In this document: piece by piece, positions 247 to 18,675 of the stretch
How positions within the stretch are numbered: position 1 is the stretch's first letter
Layout of the letters: each line of letters begins with the position of its first letter
From: Candidatus Stercoripulliclostridium merdipullorum
GTDB lineage: Bacteria; Bacillota; Clostridia; Christensenellales; DTU072
Assembly (NCBI GenBank): GCA_018713745.1
Contig: DVOH01000028.1
Coordinates: forward strand, 1-40,879
Direction of reading: 5' to 3'
Length of the DNA: 40,879 nucleotides
Notes under the pieces: model-generated
Told to the model about the DNA's origin: nothing
The model's input: the letters and a program-made list of their open reading frames with translations, nothing else
Database searches by the model: none
Program-made: the position numbers and the translations under genes

Positions 247-2628
247 CTATTTGGCGGTATCCCGGCGCGTTTCTTCGGCGGGCTCAGCCTTTTTGTTGTC
301 GATCATACGTTTTTTGCCCTTCCACATCGTGTATCGGATGGGCGTATCCAGCAGAATCAGCAGTTGCGGCAACAAGACAAGTACGAGAACGAACGCGCAC
401 AAGCCGCCCCTGCCGATCGTCATCCCGAACAATGACGTTGCGGGCATTCCGGACACAATCCCCAAGGCAAACCCCGCAAAGGTCAGGATTCCCGCCGACG
501 TGATCAACGAACGGCTGGAGTTGCTGACGGCGTGACGCATGGCGTCGAATTTGTTCATGGTGGCACGGTGTTCGACATAGCGGTCGCTGAGCAGGATGGC
601 GTAGTCGATCGTTGCGCCGAGCAAAATCGAACTGACCAGGAGGTATCCGACAAAGATCATCGGCTGATCGAAAATATACGGGAATACCATATTGACATAG
701 ATCGATCCTTGTATCACGCCGATCAAAATGATCGGGATGAGAATCGAGCGTGTACTGATCAGAATAATCAGCGCGACCAACGCGATGGAAATGTAAGTGA
801 TGATGTCGTAGTCGGAACGAACGAGGTCGCGGATTTCGAGCGTGCTTTCGGACTCGCCGAGCATAAAGTACGCTTTGCCGCCGCTTGCGATATCGTCGCC
901 CACATACCGGTCGACGATGGCGCGGATTTCGGCAAGAATGGCTTCGGGGCGTTCTCCCTCCTGTTCGCAGTTGAGCATCACAACCATACGGGTATAATTG
1001 CCTTTGTCTTTGAACTGCTTTAAGAAGGAATCGGGCAGCATTTCGTCGAATCCCGCCTCTTCGATGACCGAAAGAGATTGCACGCTGATCACCTTGTCGG
1101 TGCCGAGCGCGATGATATCGTATGTAATGGCGGCTTCTCGATCGTAATACTCGACGGGCAACAGAATGGCAAGCTGATTCTGAATGCCGAATTTTTCTTC
1201 GATGACGGCTTTATCCTCACTTAACAGACTTCCGGGGCCGCCCGTTGAAGCTTCGGGTCCGTAGGTGTAAGTGTTAAGCCCCTGGAAATAAATACAGGGA
1301 ATAATGGCAAGGATAATCAGAACGGGCAGGAACTTGCGTGTTTTGATCAAAAAATTGCTGAACTTGCCCAATCGGAGATTGAAGGTTTTGTGTTCGCCTT
1401 TGAAGATCAGTTTTTCGGTCAAAAGAATCATGCCGGGCATAAAGAAGAACACGGCAAGGATGCTGAAAATAACGCCCTTGGTCAAAACCAAACCGATGTC
1501 GAAGCCGAGTTTGTATTGCATAAACATCAGCGCGACGAATCCCGCAACCGTCGTCATCGAACTTGCCATGATGGGACTGAAGGAAGTACGCAAGGCTTCG
1601 ACCATAGCGGGAGAAGCGTCTTTCCCGCTGCGGCGTTCCTGTTTGTAACGGTTGAGGAGGAAAATCGAATAGTCCATCGTCAGCGCAAGCTGCAAAACGG
1701 CGGAAACGCCGTGCGTCATATACGAAATGGAAGAAAGGGCGAGATTGGTGCCCATGTTGATCAGAATCGACGCACCGATGACGAGGAGAATCAGCACCGG
1801 CTCCCACCAGGAGGTCGTCATCAAAAACAGAATGACGATTACCACAATACCCGCCACGATCGTGGAAGTCACGGTTTCGGAGGTAACGGTCAGACGGGCG
1901 TTGTACGGAATGGCAGAGCTTCCGGACATATAAATTTCGATATTTTCCATACTGCGAATGGTGCGTATGGCGTTGTATGTGGAATCGCTGTAATCGCCTT
2001 CTTCAAAAAAAATCTGGTAAAACGCGGCGTTGTCGTTGTAAAACGTCTTGATCTGATCCTTGAACGCCGTTGCCGATCCGATATTGAGGGAGGGATCGTT
2101 CATCATCGGCGCCATGGCGAGGACGAAGGACGTAAACAAACCTTTGTCCGGCTGTTCGTCGGGAGCGGCTTCCATAATAATATTAACCTGATCGACCAGA
2201 TCGAGGTCGGCAAAATCGGGCGTGAGCCCCTCGATAATCGCTACGATAAATTCTACGGCTTTGCCGCGGGTAATCTCCTTGCCGTCCTCTTCCATGGACT
2301 GCAGCGGAACTTCGATAAACGGCTCCACCAGCTCGTCGATCCAAACGACGCTTTTGACGCCGTCGACGGCAAGCAAGGTCTGTTTGAAATCGGTTGCGGC
2401 TTCGACGTCAACGTTGTTGAGCATCAGCGAAGCGTTGCCGGACGAGCCGAAATCGTGATACATCGCGTTGAGTCCGAGTTTGGTTTCGGAGTCTTCGGGG
2501 AGATACAGCGTGTCGTCGTAATTGACTTGAACAAAGGGTAAGCAAATTGCGCCGCCCGCCGCAAGCACGGCGAATAAAATGACGAAAACAAGCTTATATT
2601 TGGCGATAAACTCGGCAAATTTTTTCAT
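247..2628 (-). CDS. MMPL/RND-superfamily exporter
   Basis: A 793-residue inner-membrane protein of the MMPL (RND superfamily) type, which exports lipids or hydrophobic drugs using the proton gradient. The sequence shows two similar halves. Each has one N-terminal membrane helix (the first near residues 15-35), a large extracytoplasmic loop, and a block of about five helices. The last helices are followed by a charged cytoplasmic tail. The start is taken at MKKFAEFIAKYK rather than the ORF-track start, because a lysine-rich N-terminus directly before the first helix is normal; the ribosome site (AGGGG, 10 bases upstream) is weak. It lies 39 bases downstream of a TetR regulator in the same direction, so the regulator probably controls this pump. 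The substrate cannot be told from the sequence. Confidence 0.93.
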   Translation of the reverse strand: MKKFAEFIAKYKLVFVILFAVLAAGGAICLPFVQVNYDDTLYLPEDSETKLGLNAMYHDFGSSGNASLMLNNVDVEAATDFKQTLLAVDGVKSVVWIDELVEPFIEVPLQSMEEDGKEITRGKAVEFIVAIIEGLTPDFADLDLVDQVNIIMEAAPDEQPDKGLFTSFVLAMAPMMNDPSLNIGSATAFKDQIKTFYNDNAAFYQIFFEEGDYSDSTYNAIRTIRSMENIEIYMSGSSAIPYNARLTVTSETVTSTIVAGIVVIVILFLMTTSWWEPVLILLVIGASILINMGTNLALSSISYMTHGVSAVLQLALTMDYSIFLLNRYKQERRSGKDASPAMVEALRTSFSPIMASSMTTVAGFVALMFMQYKLGFDIGLVLTKGVIFSILAVFFFMPGMILLTEKLIFKGEHKTFNLRLGKFSNFLIKTRKFLPVLIILAIIPCIYFQGLNTYTYGPEASTGGPGSLLSEDKAVIEEKFGIQNQLAILLPVEYYDREAAITYDIIALGTDKVISVQSLSVIEEAGFDEMLPDSFLKQFKDKGNYTRMVVMLNCEQEGERPEAILAEIRAIVDRYVGDDIASGGKAYFMLGESESTLEIRDLVRSDYDIITYISIALVALIILISTRSILIPIILIGVIQGSIYVNMVFPYIFDQPMIFVGYLLVSSILLGATIDYAILLSDRYVEHRATMNKFDAMRHAVSNSSRSLITSAGILTFAGFALGIVSGMPATSLFGMTIGRGGLCAFVLVLVLLPQLLILLDTPIRYTMWKGKKRMIDNKKAEPAEETRRDTAK

Positions 2629-11959: not shown

Positions 11960-12180
11960 GATTTGACAAAACAAAATGATACACCCCGAGCTTGTCGGAA
12001 CGCGTCGATCCCCCTCTGTTGCAAAGGGCGAAACACCTCTCCCGTCGATGTCGTCATCGAAAGACCCACCCGCCCCAAACAACGGGCATCTGCAAAATCA
12101 TATTGGTAGCCACTGCTACAAATATAAACGAGATCGGAAGCAAACACCCTTGCTTGCCCCGGCAAGTCGCACGCGAGGGT
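11960..12180. other. Intergenic stretch without a recognised gene, between the ZIP promoter and the CRISPR array
   Basis: About 220 bases lie past the distal end of the array. The overlapping track ORFs on both strands have no recognisable protein features, no convincing start sites and run into the array, so they are not called. No terminator for the crRNA transcript and no further repeat copies were seen. Confidence 0.5.
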
Positions 12181-12546
12181 TCAGAGAAGATCGGCAGAAC
12201 AACAAGCTTCTCAAACACTATGGGGATCAGAGTGAGAAACAGAAAGGTTCAAGAAGTATATGGAATAACAAGCTTCTCAAACAGGAGGTGTTGCTCCTTA
12301 TCGCCCGAAAGAGTTCAAGAAGTATATGGAATAACAAGCTTCTCAAACTAGTCTTACGACATGCAAAGCTTTTGTTGAGTTCAAGAAGTATATGGAATAA
12401 CAAGCTTCTCAAACAGAAAGCGATTATTAAAACGCGCGCGGTTTGTTCAAGAAGTATATGGAATAACAAGCTTCTCAAACGCAGTCGTCTTGAGGCTGCT
12501 ATTCAAAATTGTTCAAGAAGTATATGGAATAACAAGCTTCTCAAAC
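12181..12546 (-). CRISPR. Type II-A CRISPR array: six repeats (one degenerate) and five 30-nt spacers
   Basis: Five identical 36-bp repeats start at 12247, 12313, 12379, 12445 and 12511, each separated by exactly 30 bases. A sixth copy at 12181-12216 keeps the last 16 plus-strand bases (AACAAGCTTCTCAAAC) but is worn at its other half, and a 30-base spacer follows it. In the crRNA direction (minus strand) the repeat begins GTTTGAGAAGCTTGTTATTC. The degenerate copy is at the far end, so the leader is at 12547 and newest spacers are nearest csn2. This agrees with the direction of the cas genes. Spacer 12481-12510 would be the most recent. Spacer targets cannot be judged here. Confidence 0.98.
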
Positions 12547-13308
12547 CTCAAAAGTCGGCAATCGCGTCGGAAATCCGTCGATTGCGCCCTTTGGGGCGTT
12601 GCTTGCTATCCTTTCATATAATACACCGCTTTGTCCGTCGCCGTCAACAATCGTGCACAAATCATCGGTGACAATGACGTGCCGCTCCCCGTCCAGACGG
12701 GCGGGAAGGCTCCCCTCGATGTCCAGGAGCTCCAGCTGTAAGGCGCGGCAATGGCGATAAAACGCAATGACGTCTTCTGCCCCGAGCATGCGCCTGAGAT
12801 GCACCGTAATCAACAGCTGTTGCGCCTGAACGGAGGCAACCACATCGGCGATGGTACAAAGTTGCTCCAACAGCCCTCCCTCTTGTCGGAAGCGGATGCC
12901 GACCGCCTTGAGAAGATCGGCGATTCCTGGTTCTTCCCAATCGACGGCGACCGAAAAATCTTCGCTAAGCTCCCGTACAAAGGCGCCGATCTGCCCCTGC
13001 AGGGCGTTGAGCGAGCCTTCGTCACCGCCCGCGACATAGTGCTGCTCCAGTTTTTTGCAGAACCGAGCCAGTCGTTTTTTGTCGTTGGGCTGCAAATTGC
13101 TGAGATCGGTCTCGACCGCGACTGCGGCGGACAGCGGAACCGCCTTGCCTTCTTTTAAGAGAACAAAGTCCCCGTCCTCTCCCTCCGCCTGTCGGCGCAG
13201 GTCGGTGACGACGCGGTACAGAAAGGCAGGGTTCTCGATCGTCCAGATCAAAGGATATCCCACCGCGGTGCAAAGGGGCTCCTCCAGTCCGACGTGTACC
13301 AGCTTCAC
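12541..13308 (-). CDS. csn2: CRISPR-associated protein Csn2 with a C-terminal extension over the array leader
   Basis: Subtype II-A Csn2 forms a calcium-dependent tetrameric ring on DNA ends and helps Cas1-Cas2 acquire spacers. The 255-residue protein shows the family pattern TIENPAFLYRVVTDL, EGEDGDFVLL and QPNDKKRLARFCKKLEQH. Family members are about 220 residues and end near the point matched here by VIVTDDLCTIV (residues 211-221). About 31 more residues follow, and the stop TGA is inside the first CRISPR repeat (GTTTGA). That extra stretch is also the array promoter and leader, so it may be read-through rather than functional protein. The start is GTG 13308, overlapping the cas2 stop by 4 bases (GTGA). 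Confidence 0.92.
   Translation of the reverse strand: MKLVHVGLEEPLCTAVGYPLIWTIENPAFLYRVVTDLRRQAEGEDGDFVLLKEGKAVPLSAAVAVETDLSNLQPNDKKRLARFCKKLEQHYVAGGDEGSLNALQGQIGAFVRELSEDFSVAVDWEEPGIADLLKAVGIRFRQEGGLLEQLCTIADVVASVQAQQLLITVHLRRMLGAEDVIAFYRHCRALQLELLDIEGSLPARLDGERHVIVTDDLCTIVDGDGQSGVLYERIASNAPKGAIDGFPTRLPTFEV
12547..12647 (-). promoter_or_regulatory. CRISPR leader and array promoter, embedded in the 3' end of csn2
   Basis: Minus strand: TTGACG (12647-12642), an 18-base spacer and TATTAT (12623-12618) make a good promoter aimed at the array, with an expected transcription start near 12611 and about 65 leader bases before the first repeat. The bases joining the repeat are TTTTGAG, resembling the ATTTGAG-type leader-end motif reported to anchor spacer integration in type II-A systems. 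All of it is inside the open csn2 frame. Confidence 0.75.
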
Positions 13309-13610
13309 AGTTCCACCAGCCGATCCATGGTGTCCAGCACCGTTTTTTGCCCTTCGCCGACCAGATACTCGATTCTGCCAAACTGATTTTCGGTGATCTC
13401 CAGCAATTCGACCAGCCCTTCGGGCGGCAGGTGACTGCGGACGCGGTCTTTGAGGGCGCGGCTCGACACATTGTTGACCACCAGCTTGGTATAGACCGAT
13501 TTCTGCATCATAATGAAGCCGTTCTCCAACAAAAAGTGACGGAATCGGCTGTACTCCCGCCGATCTTTGTCGGTCTGCATGGGGAGATCAAACAGTACCA
13601 TCAATCTCAT
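13305..13610 (-). CDS. cas2: CRISPR-associated endonuclease Cas2
   Basis: Cas2 is the small ferredoxin-fold partner that bridges two Cas1 dimers in the spacer-integration complex. The 101-residue protein starts MRLMVLFDLPM, where the aspartate of FDLP is the conserved metal-site residue. QTDKDRREYSRFRHFLLENGF follows, typical of subtype II-A Cas2. The start is ATG 13610, inside the cas1 end (23-base overlap). The ribosome site is weak, so translation is probably coupled to cas1. The track start 12 codons earlier lies deeper in cas1 and is not supported. Confidence 0.95.
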   Translation of the reverse strand: MRLMVLFDLPMQTDKDRREYSRFRHFLLENGFIMMQKSVYTKLVVNNVSSRALKDRVRSHLPPEGLVELLEITENQFGRIEYLVGEGQKTVLDTMDRLVEL

Positions 13611-14496
13611 AAAGCGATAATTCACCGATCTTATCGTGTGCCACAATCGGAATCCCGATTGCGCCCCCTCCTTCTCGCAAAACTTCGGTCACGTTGCGTA
13701 CATACCCGCGGATTGCAACGTCCAGCGTCGTCTGCCGCCCCTCCCACTCCGCTTTGAGGTTGATGACGTCGGCAAGGCGGGAGCGGAAGTCCCCCTGCTC
13801 CGCTTTCAGCGTCATCACCCGCCGATCGACGACGACCCGGAAAGGCTCGACAAGATCGCAGGAAAGGTTGAAGGCGTTGCAGTCGTTGTCGTGGCGCATC
13901 CCCAGTTGGGTCAGATAGCCCGACGCCACGACCTCGCGGTTGAATGTCGACAACAGGACGGCATAGCCGTAATTCAGGCAGGCGTTGACAAAGCCCCCTT
14001 GCCGCCGCGACCGCTCCCCCAGCCAGCGGTTGAAGTAGACCTTGGCGGCATGCCCCTCCCGATTGGCGGGATCGCCCGCCTGCACTTCGGCGCGGTAGCG
14101 ACGCAGCAACGCTCCCTCGGCGGCAAAGCCCAGTTCCTCCAGCACGGCGGCTTGCCCCGCGATTTTGGCGCGGATCAGCTCTCCCCACACATAGTCCTTG
14201 GCTTGCCGCGTCCAGGCAATCTGCTCTTTGTACCGCTTGGGCGTGTTGTGCGCACCGTAAAACGGCGTCAGCTCGGCACAGGGATTGTGCTTGTCGTCGC
14301 AGAAGACGACGTTGATCTTACGCCGCGCCAACTCGGCAAGGAGCGCCGCCGTCAGGGCGACGGCGGTACTCTCGACAATCAACGTGGCGATCTCGTCCAG
14401 ATAGATCTTCTGCTCGATCTCTCCGCGGACGACGAGATAGTTGAGCCTGAGTTCCAGCTTGACGCGGGAGCGGACGATGACGGTGCGGAAGCCCAT
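13588..14496 (-). CDS. cas1: CRISPR-associated integrase Cas1 (subtype II-A)
   Basis: Cas1 is the metal-dependent integrase that inserts new spacers at the leader-repeat junction. The 302-residue protein has the three expected active-site residues: Glu147 in NREGHAAKVYF, His202 in GMRHDN and Glu217 in DLVEPFR. An N-terminal beta domain (FRTVIVRSRVKLELRLNYL) precedes them. Length and motifs match subtype II-A. The ATG overlaps the cas9 stop in TGATG (one shared base), showing tight coupling in the cas9-cas1-cas2-csn2 operon. Confidence 0.98.
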   Translation of the reverse strand: MGFRTVIVRSRVKLELRLNYLVVRGEIEQKIYLDEIATLIVESTAVALTAALLAELARRKINVVFCDDKHNPCAELTPFYGAHNTPKRYKEQIAWTRQAKDYVWGELIRAKIAGQAAVLEELGFAAEGALLRRYRAEVQAGDPANREGHAAKVYFNRWLGERSRRQGGFVNACLNYGYAVLLSTFNREVVASGYLTQLGMRHDNDCNAFNLSCDLVEPFRVVVDRRVMTLKAEQGDFRSRLADVINLKAEWEGRQTTLDVAIRGYVRNVTEVLREGGGAIGIPIVAHDKIGELSLYEIDGTV

Positions 14497-17400
14497 CAGA
14501 CGCGGCGACGGACTTCGCGCAAGCCGCAGGGCGAGCGGTGGATCAGCGTGATCTCACGCCCGCTGATATCTTTGCCAAATAATATCATTCCGCAATGCGC
14601 GCCGTATCCTAACAGTGACAAATCGCACAGTTCGGCGTTGCACTTCAAAAACCGTACCGCCTGCAGTACCACCGCCATGCGGTCGGCAACCGGCAAGCCC
14701 ACAAAGCGCTCCCGCCCTTCGGCAAGGTACTTTGCGATGGTCTTTGCCGCCGACAGACGCCGACAGACTTCCCGATTGAGGTGGGCAAGGATTGCGTCGT
14801 AGACGGCAAGGCACTCCGCCCCCGTCACTTGACTGACGTCGCCCAGGCGGTTGCGGACAATCCGAAGGGCGCCGTCCTTCTCCTCAAAGGCTCTGCCCTG
14901 CTTGCGCCATTCGGCAAGGCGCACCATCTCGCCGACAATCCGCGCCGTCTCTCCGTCGGGACACCACTGATAGGCATTGTGGAAAATAAATTGCTTTCCT
15001 GTAACTCCCGCGATCCGCAAGGGGTAGCCGTCGATCGTCATCAAGGACTTGATCTTGACTTTGGGTACCACGACCGTTGGATTCAGAAGTCCGTTTTCGG
15101 CAAGATAGGCGGTCAGCTTGACGGGGTCGTCCCCGATCCGTCTTGCCGCCAGGACGGGGATTGCTTCGATCGTCACAAGCTCTTTGCCCTTTTTCCCTTC
15201 CGACCTGACAATGGCAAAGTAGGCGGTCGGCGTCCCCTTATATCCCCCGTAGCGGCTTGCGTCGGCAAGGGGTCCTTTCTCCTTACGGCTCGCGGTGATC
15301 CCGCCGTCGGTCTTGGGATAAACGGTCTGGTCGTAAAACGCGCCTTTTTGGCAATATGTATAGCGCGTGACGATCATGCTGTTCTTGTCGTAATTCCGCT
15401 TGACTTCGGGGTAGGTCTTCTCCTTGCTCCACGCGCCGGGGATGTCGGCGTCATAAAGTTTGAGCAGATTGTATCGCCGCTGCGATCCGTCCTTGCGGTC
15501 GTAGAAGTACGCCCGGGGATTGCCGAAGCGGACGTCAAAGACGTTGCCTACGACGATGTTAAGGTAAGCGTCCCGTGCATGATGCAGGTCGTTGACCTCG
15601 CGGCACTTGCCGAGTTTGGCACGGTCGCGAAAGTCGCTGACGTTGCCCGCTTTGCTATAGACGACCTTAGTCCCCTCCTGCTCATACCGCCGCCGCATCA
15701 GTTCGGCAACGGCTTTTGCCGTCTGTCCCGTCTCGACGATCTGGCGGCTGATGAAGGAGCGGAAGTCCTCTTCCCCGAGTTCGGCAACGCGCGTCAGCAA
15801 CGCGTACTTCTTGTCCCCGATCAGCTTCTTCTCGTGCAGGTACTTCCACAGCGCTTGCACCTTGGCACCGCGACAGCCTTCGGGCAAGGGGTATCGGTCG
15901 CCCTTGACGTGGTTGTTGATCTCTTTGCGGACAAGGACTTTGTTTTCGATACTGTCGTCCTTGACCAACGTGCGCGGGATGATGTGATCGACGTCATAAA
16001 GGCTGCTGCCCAGTTCTTCCAGGCGGATTTCCTCCCCCGAATACATACATCTGCCGCACTGGCGATAGTACAGGTACAGCCGCTCCTGCTTCAGACGGAC
16101 TTCGCTTTCGTCCTTCAGACTGTGTTTCAGGTCGTCGTACTCCTTGACGTCCTGATATAGGGCTTGCAGCTGCTTGAGGCGGGACTGCGTCCGCTCTTTT
16201 TTGTTGTCGTCGCCCCGCGTCACTTCGACAAAGACTTTGTCGGGCGCCCTGCCGACGGCGGCAATGTATTCGTCCGCCATCTGCAACGCCTGCCACACCC
16301 CGCGCCGCACTTTGGGCGACACATACAGATCTTCGACGTCCTCATAGGACAGCCGATCGATGCCGCCCCCGTTTTCGGCTTCGATCGCCCGGCGGAAACC
16401 GTAACGCTCGTCAAACAGGATTTCGTTGAGGTTCATATTGGTCGCGTACAGCTCGCCGATGATCGTGTAGGGCTCGCCCGTCTCGGGATCTTCCCCGCCC
16501 GACAGCTCGCTCAAAAATTCACGCGAAAGCCGTCCGAAATCTTTGAATCCGCCCAGTGCACCGAGCTTCTTCAGATTGGCGCGCACGACCTCCAGCTCGC
16601 CGTACTTGCGTTCGATCAGTCGGCGGACAATCTTCTTGTCGGTGTTGAGAGTGTGCCACAGGATAAGGTCTTCGGCAAGATCGGGGACGCGGTCGACGGC
16701 ATCGCCCAAAATATCCTTGAGAATCAGATAGCTGCTCATCGACGCGCTGAAGCTCTCTTCGGTGCCGCCGATCTTGGCGGCGTCGGCTTCGGCAGGCGTC
16801 ATCAAGCCCTTTTCTTTCAGGTAGTTGCGGATGGTCTTTGCACTGACCTTCCGCACCTTGAGATAGACGTCGGTGTACAGTTGCTGCTTGAAGTTGACGT
16901 CGATGGGTTTCCCGTCGATCGTCAGCTTGTTGATCTGATTGAGAACGTTGAACTTCTGATACAAAATCGAATGTTTGGGCAACACGTCTTTGCCGTGCAG
17001 GTAACTGCACTTCGACGTCATGCGCCGCATAAACTTCTCGTTGCTGGCGGCGCGATCGACCATTTGGTCAAAGTTCCAGGGCGTAATCGCGCCGGGCTTG
17101 CGTACCGCCCAGGCGTTGCCGCCCTTGCCTTCGTGCGCGGTGTTGAGCGGTCCGACATAGTACGGGATGCGATAGGTCAAAATCGACGCGATCTTTTGCG
17201 CGGGCGTGACCCCGTCGTCCCCTTCCGCTCCGAATGCGGGGTACTGCCTTAGGAGATTGGTCACAATCTCCTTGAGCTCTTCCTCGTTGACCTGATAAGG
17301 GAACAACCCGTTGTCGGCGTGGAGGATCTTGGGCAAAAATTTGCCTTCTTCCAATTCCCCGAGCATCAGGGCGACTTCGGGCTCTTCGCATCCTTTCAGC

Positions 17401-18542
17401 GGCGCAAGCTCCTTTTTGAGAAACTTAAAAAAGTCTTCGGGCTTGCACTTCTTGACCGTCTGCTTCTCCTTGCCCATCGCGGTATGCCCGACGTAGTTGG
17501 CATAGTTTGCCGTCTGATCGCTTGCTTCGAGGATTTTGCGGTAGGCATCTTCGCCGAGGTGGGTTTTGATCGCTTTTTTCAAGACGGCAAGATCGCGTTT
17601 ATGCTTGTCGTAGATTGCGATCATCGCGTCCGAAATCCGTCGGTGTGACCCGAGAATGGACTCAAACACAAAGTAATCGTGGACGGCTTTCAGCTTTTCG
17701 AGCAATTCGAAGTCGTCGCCGTAGGTTGCGGCAAGGGCGTCAAACTCCTCCTGCTTGATCTCGTCAAACGAAAAACTTTTTTCTTCCCGATACCGCTCGT
17801 CGCCGAACAGTTTGAAGGGACTGCCCTTACTGCCCAGCATCAACGCGACCGCTTCTTTCTGCGCCTCGCCGACAGCGCCAAGCAACGCGATCGCTTCTTT
17901 TTTCTTCTGCGTTTTGCCCCTTCGCTTATCCAGTCCGATCTCCTTGAAGGCTTCGCCTGCAAGCGGATCGAGCGTTCTGCCCTCTTCTTCGCGCTCGGCA
18001 AGCGCTTCGACTACCGCCGCGTAAGGCGCGTCAAAACTGCGCACTTCGCCGAGCGACTGCCCTTCCCGCAAAAAGTGTCCGCGATACTTGACAATATGAT
18101 GCAGTGCCAGATAGTACAGTCGGAGATCGTACGCCTTGCCGCCCTCGGCAAGGGCTTTGCGCAGATGAAAGATCGTCGGATACGCACGATAAAAATCGAC
18201 GTCGGTATAATCTTTGTCTTCAAACAGGGCATATTTCCCGAGCCCTTCCGACTTGTCGTCCGCCCACAGCGCGCTTTGGTTCAACCGCATAAAAAACAGC
18301 GGATCCCCCTCCATCAGCGGCGCAAAAATCGCCTGCAGCCACTCGATCCGCTGCCGACGGCGTTGATACCGACGCCTCAGCGTCCGCGCGGCACGACGCT
18401 CTTCTGCCGTTTTTGCCTCGTCAAACAGCCGTACCGCCCAGAGGTCCCGTCCCTTTGCGCGCAACAGGCGATACGTTTCGTCCGTGCATGCCATCCCGAC
18501 CGAATTGGTCCCGATGTCCATCCCTAAATAAAATTTTTCCAT
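14496..18542 (-). CDS. cas9: CRISPR-associated endonuclease Cas9 (subtype II-A)
   Basis: A 1348-residue Cas9, the RNA-guided nuclease that cuts DNA with crRNA and tracrRNA. Visible parts: RuvC-I YLGMDIGTNSVG with Asp9; an arginine-rich bridge helix (RRAARTLRRRYQRRRQR) near residue 60; RuvC-II VFVEVTR with Glu773; HNH DVDHIIPRTL with catalytic His853; RuvC-III DLHHARDAYLN with His988 and Asp991; and a C-terminal PAM-interacting domain containing YGGYKGTPTAYF. All catalytic residues are kept, so it looks intact. The start is ATG 18542 with AAGGAG 6 bases upstream. The 34 extra residues in the ORF track overlap the tracrRNA promoter and anti-repeat and are rejected. First gene of a four-gene cas operon. 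Confidence 0.98.
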   Translation of the reverse strand: MEKFYLGMDIGTNSVGMACTDETYRLLRAKGRDLWAVRLFDEAKTAEERRAARTLRRRYQRRRQRIEWLQAIFAPLMEGDPLFFMRLNQSALWADDKSEGLGKYALFEDKDYTDVDFYRAYPTIFHLRKALAEGGKAYDLRLYYLALHHIVKYRGHFLREGQSLGEVRSFDAPYAAVVEALAEREEEGRTLDPLAGEAFKEIGLDKRRGKTQKKKEAIALLGAVGEAQKEAVALMLGSKGSPFKLFGDERYREEKSFSFDEIKQEEFDALAATYGDDFELLEKLKAVHDYFVFESILGSHRRISDAMIAIYDKHKRDLAVLKKAIKTHLGEDAYRKILEASDQTANYANYVGHTAMGKEKQTVKKCKPEDFFKFLKKELAPLKGCEEPEVALMLGELEEGKFLPKILHADNGLFPYQVNEEELKEIVTNLLRQYPAFGAEGDDGVTPAQKIASILTYRIPYYVGPLNTAHEGKGGNAWAVRKPGAITPWNFDQMVDRAASNEKFMRRMTSKCSYLHGKDVLPKHSILYQKFNVLNQINKLTIDGKPIDVNFKQQLYTDVYLKVRKVSAKTIRNYLKEKGLMTPAEADAAKIGGTEESFSASMSSYLILKDILGDAVDRVPDLAEDLILWHTLNTDKKIVRRLIERKYGELEVVRANLKKLGALGGFKDFGRLSREFLSELSGGEDPETGEPYTIIGELYATNMNLNEILFDERYGFRRAIEAENGGGIDRLSYEDVEDLYVSPKVRRGVWQALQMADEYIAAVGRAPDKVFVEVTRGDDNKKERTQSRLKQLQALYQDVKEYDDLKHSLKDESEVRLKQERLYLYYRQCGRCMYSGEEIRLEELGSSLYDVDHIIPRTLVKDDSIENKVLVRKEINNHVKGDRYPLPEGCRGAKVQALWKYLHEKKLIGDKKYALLTRVAELGEEDFRSFISRQIVETGQTAKAVAELMRRRYEQEGTKVVYSKAGNVSDFRDRAKLGKCREVNDLHHARDAYLNIVVGNVFDVRFGNPRAYFYDRKDGSQRRYNLLKLYDADIPGAWSKEKTYPEVKRNYDKNSMIVTRYTYCQKGAFYDQTVYPKTDGGITASRKEKGPLADASRYGGYKGTPTAYFAIVRSEGKKGKELVTIEAIPVLAARRIGDDPVKLTAYLAENGLLNPTVVVPKVKIKSLMTIDGYPLRIAGVTGKQFIFHNAYQWCPDGETARIVGEMVRLAEWRKQGRAFEEKDGALRIVRNRLGDVSQVTGAECLAVYDAILAHLNREVCRRLSAAKTIAKYLAEGRERFVGLPVADRMAVVLQAVRFLKCNAELCDLSLLGYGAHCGMILFGKDISGREITLIHRSPCGLREVRRRV

Positions 18543-18560
18543 CAATTTCTCCTTTTTGCC

Positions 18561-18589
18561 TTGACAGGCGGATTTTTCCGGTGTATCAT
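18561..18589 (+). promoter_or_regulatory. Promoter of tracrRNA
   Basis: TTGACA (18561-18566), 17-base spacer, TATCAT (18584-18589) on the plus strand. Transcription should begin at about 18596-18598, exactly at the anti-repeat. It lies only 19 bases upstream of the cas9 start codon and points away from cas9. Confidence 0.8.
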
Positions 18590-18614
18590 AATAAATAGAA
18601 TAACAAGCGTTCAA
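18586..18614 (-). promoter_or_regulatory. cas9: Candidate proximal cas9 promoter overlapping the tracrRNA promoter
   Basis: Minus strand TTGAAC (18614-18609), 18-base spacer, TATGAT (18591-18586). Its -35 box lies in the tracrRNA anti-repeat and its -10 covers the tracrRNA -10 box, so polymerase could not use both at once. The match is moderate; a second candidate lies at 18710-18718. Confidence 0.45.
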
Positions 18615-18675
18615 ATACAAATTTATTCTAATCACTTGTCGCATTGGCGGCGCTCCCGTAAGGGAGATTTTTTTT
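18597..18675 (+). ncRNA. tracrRNA
   Basis: About 78 nt, divergent from cas9. The anti-repeat at 18598-18616 (GAATAACAAGC, then GT, then TCAAAT) pairs with the start of the CRISPR repeat. There are 11 perfect pairs with GCTTGTTATTC, a 3-by-2 bulge, and a 6-pair lower stem with GTTTGA including one G-U. This is the usual type II repeat/anti-repeat shape. A small stem GTCGC-ATTG-GCGGC follows at 18638-18651, and then a terminator CTCCC-GTAA-GGGAG with eight Ts (18653-18675). A near-consensus promoter sits directly upstream. The RNA has not been observed; the call rests on pairing, promoter and terminator together. Confidence 0.88.
18653..18675 (+). terminator. Terminator of tracrRNA
   Basis: Five-pair stem CTCCC / GGGAG capped by GTAA and followed by A and eight Ts. 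On the minus strand no T run follows it, so it should not stop transcripts approaching cas9. Confidence 0.85.

Follow-up and report, generated by a model that had tools for sequence, protein, structure and literature searches.

Where does the leader of a CRISPR array lie when the gene in front of the array fails to end before the first repeat begins? The question is raised by a type II-A locus of Candidatus Stercoripulliclostridium merdipullorum, located in a contig whose whole analysed stretch, of 40,879 nucleotides, is called the window below. The initial annotation of this DNA had reported that csn2 runs through what should be the leader and stops in the first repeat, and had offered two explanations, namely loss of the original stop, by which the leader became coding, or joint evolution of leader and protein tail. 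To choose between them it has to be established which part of the arrangement is unusual, whether the translated stretch looks like protein or like leader, and how the stop could have moved.

The type II-A operon and the end of csn2

The minus strand of the window carries a complete type II-A operon, cas9, cas1, cas2 and csn2, followed by a CRISPR array, and the four genes match the families that mark this subtype (TIGR01865, TIGR03639, TIGR01573 and TIGR01866, respectively). The cas9 gene (14496-18542, minus strand) keeps the RuvC (MDIGTNSVG) and HNH (DVDHIIP) motifs, cas1 (13588-14496, minus strand) matches its type II family at 5e-79, and the stop of the cas2 open frame (13305-13646, minus strand) shares 4 nt with the GTG start of csn2, neighbouring cas genes overlapping one another. 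The array that adjoins csn2 has the 36-nt repeats and 30-nt spacers of type II-A arrays. Repeat 1 (GTTTGAGAAGCTTGTTATTCCATATACTTCTTGAAC) lies at 12511-12546 on the minus strand, and the remainder of the array (12178-12510, minus strand) holds spacers 1-5, repeats 2-5 at 66-nt spacing and a degenerate final repeat. The five repeats on the leader side are identical; the trailer-end repeat at 12178-12215 (GTTTGAGAAGCTTGTTGTTCTGCCGATCTTCTCTGAAC) is degenerate and 2 bases longer than the others. No exact match to spacer 1 was found in viral contigs.

A candidate tracrRNA anti-repeat (GAATAACAAGC-GT-TCAAAT) is found at 18598-18616 on the plus strand, directly upstream of cas9 and divergent from it, and is the best two-stem match to the repeat in the window outside the array; an Rfam search returned a chance match only, leaving the candidate tracrRNA without an Rfam match. 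Its position is within 18542-18644, the 5' portion of the longest cas9 frame, and homology suggests that cas9 starts near 18542 rather than at 18644, which would leave a putative tracrRNA gene upstream and divergent. A second strong complementarity to the repeat (1889-1936, plus strand; -27 kcal/mol, G-U pairs counted) lies within a long open frame and is probably due to chance.

The csn2 gene (12541-13308, minus strand) starts with GTG at 13308 and codes for 255 amino acids. As had been noted, its frame stays open past the usual end of the protein, near residue 222, and closes at a TGA (12543-12541) formed by bases 4-6 of repeat 1, giving a csn2-to-repeat 1 gap of -6 nt in place of the non-coding gap usual in the II-A layout. 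The Csn2 profile TIGR01866 (6e-24) covers residues 2-220, so that about 33 residues remain beyond the usual domain, and the best PDB matches to the protein body are solved II-A Csn2 structures, including those of S. pyogenes and S. thermophilus, whose fold it shares. The expectation that ribosomes would cross the integration site is borne out trivially, for 6 nt of repeat 1. In the open-access text searched, mostly abstracts and passages, we found no account of a csn2 gene ending inside the first repeat.

Leader length and promoter position in related loci

About 1600 genomes, belonging to the family, order, class or phylum of this organism, supplied the Csn2 relatives, and the closest found has 36% identity. 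No close relatives of the locus were found with Csn2 or Cas9 in genome contigs, with Csn2 in viral contigs, or in plasmids, and the genus is represented by one genome only, a draft assembly. The distance from the csn2 stop to repeat 1 could be measured in 56 relatives, where it is 40-150 nt (median 80), and csn2 overlaps repeat 1 in none of them; a survey of 63 II-A systems gives a mean csn2-array intergenic region of 68 nt (PMC12080349). Measured against these distances, lack of a gap is rare. The leader itself is not absent, since the conserved DLC motif is 108 nt from repeat 1, within the range of the closest relatives (71-118).

The promoter described in the initial annotation was found as given. 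The -35 element TTGACG (12642-12647, minus strand) lies in csn2 codons, and the -10 element TATTAT (12618-12623, minus strand) follows at 18-base spacing. In an alignment of 21 loci, the focal one and its 20 nearest relatives, TTG stands at the homologous position in 20 of 21, and the relatives mostly have TATAAT or TAAAAT at a spacing of 17, the 18-base spacing recurring in relatives L002 and L003. The focal -10 lacks the TGn of most relatives and is weaker than the -10 of most of them. MAFFT misplaced both this element (two columns off; the -10 occupies columns 44-49) and the helix described below, and their positions were settled by inspection and folding.

In each of the 20 nearest relatives the csn2 stop lies between the -35 and -10 elements or overlaps them, and in nine of the 20 it directly abuts the -10. 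An array promoter buried in the 3' end of csn2 is therefore, as judged from these alignments, normal for this group. The supposition that promoter and leader normally stand apart from csn2 thus holds for the body of the leader, usually 40-150 nt of non-coding DNA, and fails for the promoter. In alignment columns 28-48 of the 20 relatives, the stop is often a TGA or TAG immediately before TATAAT.

Nor is it rare for a leader to be free of stops in a new frame. Leader frames are open in 24 of 168 cases in the AT-rich relatives (14%), and 18% of shuffles of the focal tail are open, a chance of roughly one in five to one in seven. By frame arithmetic, the TGA of the leader end, that of repeat bases 4-6 and that of repeat bases 32-34 between them shut all three reading frames of the focal locus, and in 33 of 57 loci all three are closed within leader end and repeat. 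Since integration copies repeat 1 (PMC6895254), the csn2 stop should persist after every acquisition. On sequence comparison, then, the csn2 frame is open, the leader has its normal length and elements, and the usual stop is missing; what is unusual is the lost csn2 stop, not the open leader frame as such.

The translated stretch as protein and as leader

Read as a protein tail, the leader supplies codons 223-255 (12544-12642, minus strand). Its codon usage is that of non-coding DNA, with a codon score of -12.1 bits, against 9.9 ± 3.6 (minimum -1.9) for 189 windows of equal length in the csn2 body, and it contains ATA, TTA, AGG and CGA, codons that occur at 1.5-3 per 1000. AlphaFold gives a pLDDT below 50 for residues 225-255, predicting disorder, and a confident model of residues 1-222, above 90 over most of the body. 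A Csn2 tail of such length is absent from all relatives compared. These properties argue against joint evolution of leader and protein tail; the tail, about 31 residues long, is probably disordered and tolerated as a by-product, which would make it dispensable and neutral. Loss of the original stop, by which the leader turned coding, is supported by the absence of overlap in all 56 relatives and by the position of the stop within the promoter in 20 of 20 near ones.

The same stretch looks, from its sequence, like a working leader, with its TTTTGAG end, conserved promoter position and leader-repeat pairing. The leader-end (integration) motif TTTTGAG, at 12547-12553 on the minus strand as previously reported, has one mismatch to ATTTGAG, the leader-end motif of Group 1 II-A systems (PMC5382924), and the leader end is ATTTGAG in 38 and TTTTGAG in six of 57 loci, in line with that group. 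A requirement for 10 bp of leader has been described in II-A systems (PMC6895254).

Transcription from the promoter is predicted to start near 12611, so the 5' end of the leader RNA would be GGATAGCAAGC (12601-12611, minus strand), whose sequence is complementary to that of repeat 1 and also resembles the anti-repeat GAATAACAAGC at 18598-18608 (plus strand) of the candidate tracrRNA. In the minimum-energy fold it forms an 11-bp helix with repeat 1 bases 10-20 (12537-12527), and the prediction favours pairing of the leader RNA with repeat 1 over the hairpin that the repeat could form by itself. At the homologous position the helix reaches -15.0 kcal/mol, compared with -4.6 ± 2.1 for shuffles, none of 3000 being as low. 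An unrestricted scan of the whole focal leader against the whole repeat gives p = 0.12, so it is its homologous position that carries the case for the focal helix. In relatives, 93% of cells are paired in the homologous helix, whose covariation score exceeds all 500 shuffles, and leader-repeat pairing is significant (p < 0.05) in 72% of 54 loci. Both promoter activity and pairing in the cell are predictions. In II-A systems, a hairpin of this type, formed by leader RNA and repeat, is reported to raise crRNA 1 and to suppress extraneous crRNA in cells (Liao et al. 2022 Nat Microbiol, related in PMC12080349 and PMC13187072).

Two further observations concern leaders of this kind. In the DNA from the csn2 stop to repeat 1, leader-repeat complementarity is strong across the order, up to -34 kcal/mol (L077, L026, L028, L032, L073, L085, L084 and about 30 others). 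The small inverted repeat CGCCCCAAAGGGCG of the focal leader, examined as a possible terminator, was rejected, as it is not followed by a T run.

A probable route to loss of the stop, and comparison with known systems

We consider it likely that this is an ordinary compact II-A leader, made readable as csn2 by loss of the stop and specifying an incidental Csn2 tail. The ancestral layout would have been that of the relatives, the promoter covering the end of csn2 and the stop lying between the -35 and -10 elements or overlapping them. A net gain of one base in the spacer between these elements, from 17 to 18, would have shifted csn2 out of the frame of the old stop; we infer this change as the causal event, and the order of the mutations, from a comparison in which the best relative has 36% identity. 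With no stop in the remaining leader in the new frame, translation would continue to the TGA of the repeat start GTTTGAG, and the stop would be rebuilt and the length of Csn2 kept at each acquisition, because integration duplicates repeat 1. The stretch would be retained for its DNA and RNA roles, as array promoter, leader RNA pairing element and integration motif, the leader RNA on repeat 1 keeping off tracrRNA and extraneous crRNA, and the disordered Csn2 tail would be a side effect. RNA that starts at the internal promoter has no csn2 start and would remain untranslated in the csn2 frame; translation in this frame would be confined to read-through from the cas operon.

A missing or extra base in the tail of csn2, through a sequencing or assembly error, could also make the frame falsely open in this draft genome. 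One inserted base at each of 15 tested tail-start positions brings a stop at codon 221, and at about half of the positions a single deletion brings one at codon 233; the locus is, moreover, known from one genome only. We nevertheless hold an error to be unlikely: the 18-base promoter spacing recurs in L002 and L003, most of the tested single-base changes leave Csn2 longer than in relatives, and short-read assemblies rarely contain single-base indels.

Slightly less credible again is a functional overlap: leader and Csn2 tail would have evolved jointly, and translation across the leader would tie csn2 expression to the processing of crRNA or to acquisition, as when ribosomes unfold the leader-repeat hairpin on operon read-through transcripts. 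It is true that translated codons take in the predicted leader RNA element (12611-12601) as well as 6 nt at the start of repeat 1, that the stop is regenerated with each acquisition, and that the overlapping cas genes make it plausible that operon transcripts reach the array. Neither the non-coding codon usage of the tail nor its predicted disorder fits such a role, and the tail occurs in none of the 56 relatives, where the same leader layout exists without it. A regulatory form of this idea, that ribosomes translating csn2 into repeat 1 open the leader-repeat hairpin, making the output of the array dependent on translation of csn2, with the repeat TGA ending the gene after every acquisition, seems to us slightly more doubtful still. 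Decay of the locus, with stop loss as one sign of relaxed selection on adaptation, is very improbable, since the short array of five spacers and the lack of an exact match for spacer 1 in viral contigs stand against intact frames with family matches for cas9, cas1, cas2 and csn2, preserved RuvC and HNH motifs in Cas9, five identical leader-side repeats and a candidate tracrRNA anti-repeat.

In these loci csn2, array promoter and leader are so tightly packed, the csn2 stop often lying between the promoter elements, that a change of one base in promoter spacing can make a leader into protein, and the leader end and repeat start hold stops that would end such read-through, the repeat's stop being copied at every acquisition. 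The comparison furthermore yields some 50 unstudied II-A leaders, most of them with significant leader-repeat pairing.

The locus resembles other II-A loci of the same order (e.g. L024, L029, L004 and L031) in its Csn2 family, in the promoter over the csn2 3' end, and in leader length, leader end and repeat start GTTTGAG, and differs from them in that their csn2 stop lies within the promoter, at least 40 nt ahead of the repeat, whereas the focal one lies in the repeat. As in the Group 1 II-A leaders described (PMC5382924, PMC6895254), the focal TTTTGAG directly precedes the repeat; compared with the Group 1 ATTTGAG (PMC5382924), it is one base off and is translated. Similarly, the focal leader RNA is predicted to lie over the tracrRNA-binding part of repeat 1, as in the II-A leader RNA-repeat hairpin (PMC12080349, PMC13187072), the focal element being known from prediction and, unlike that hairpin, doubling as csn2 coding sequence.
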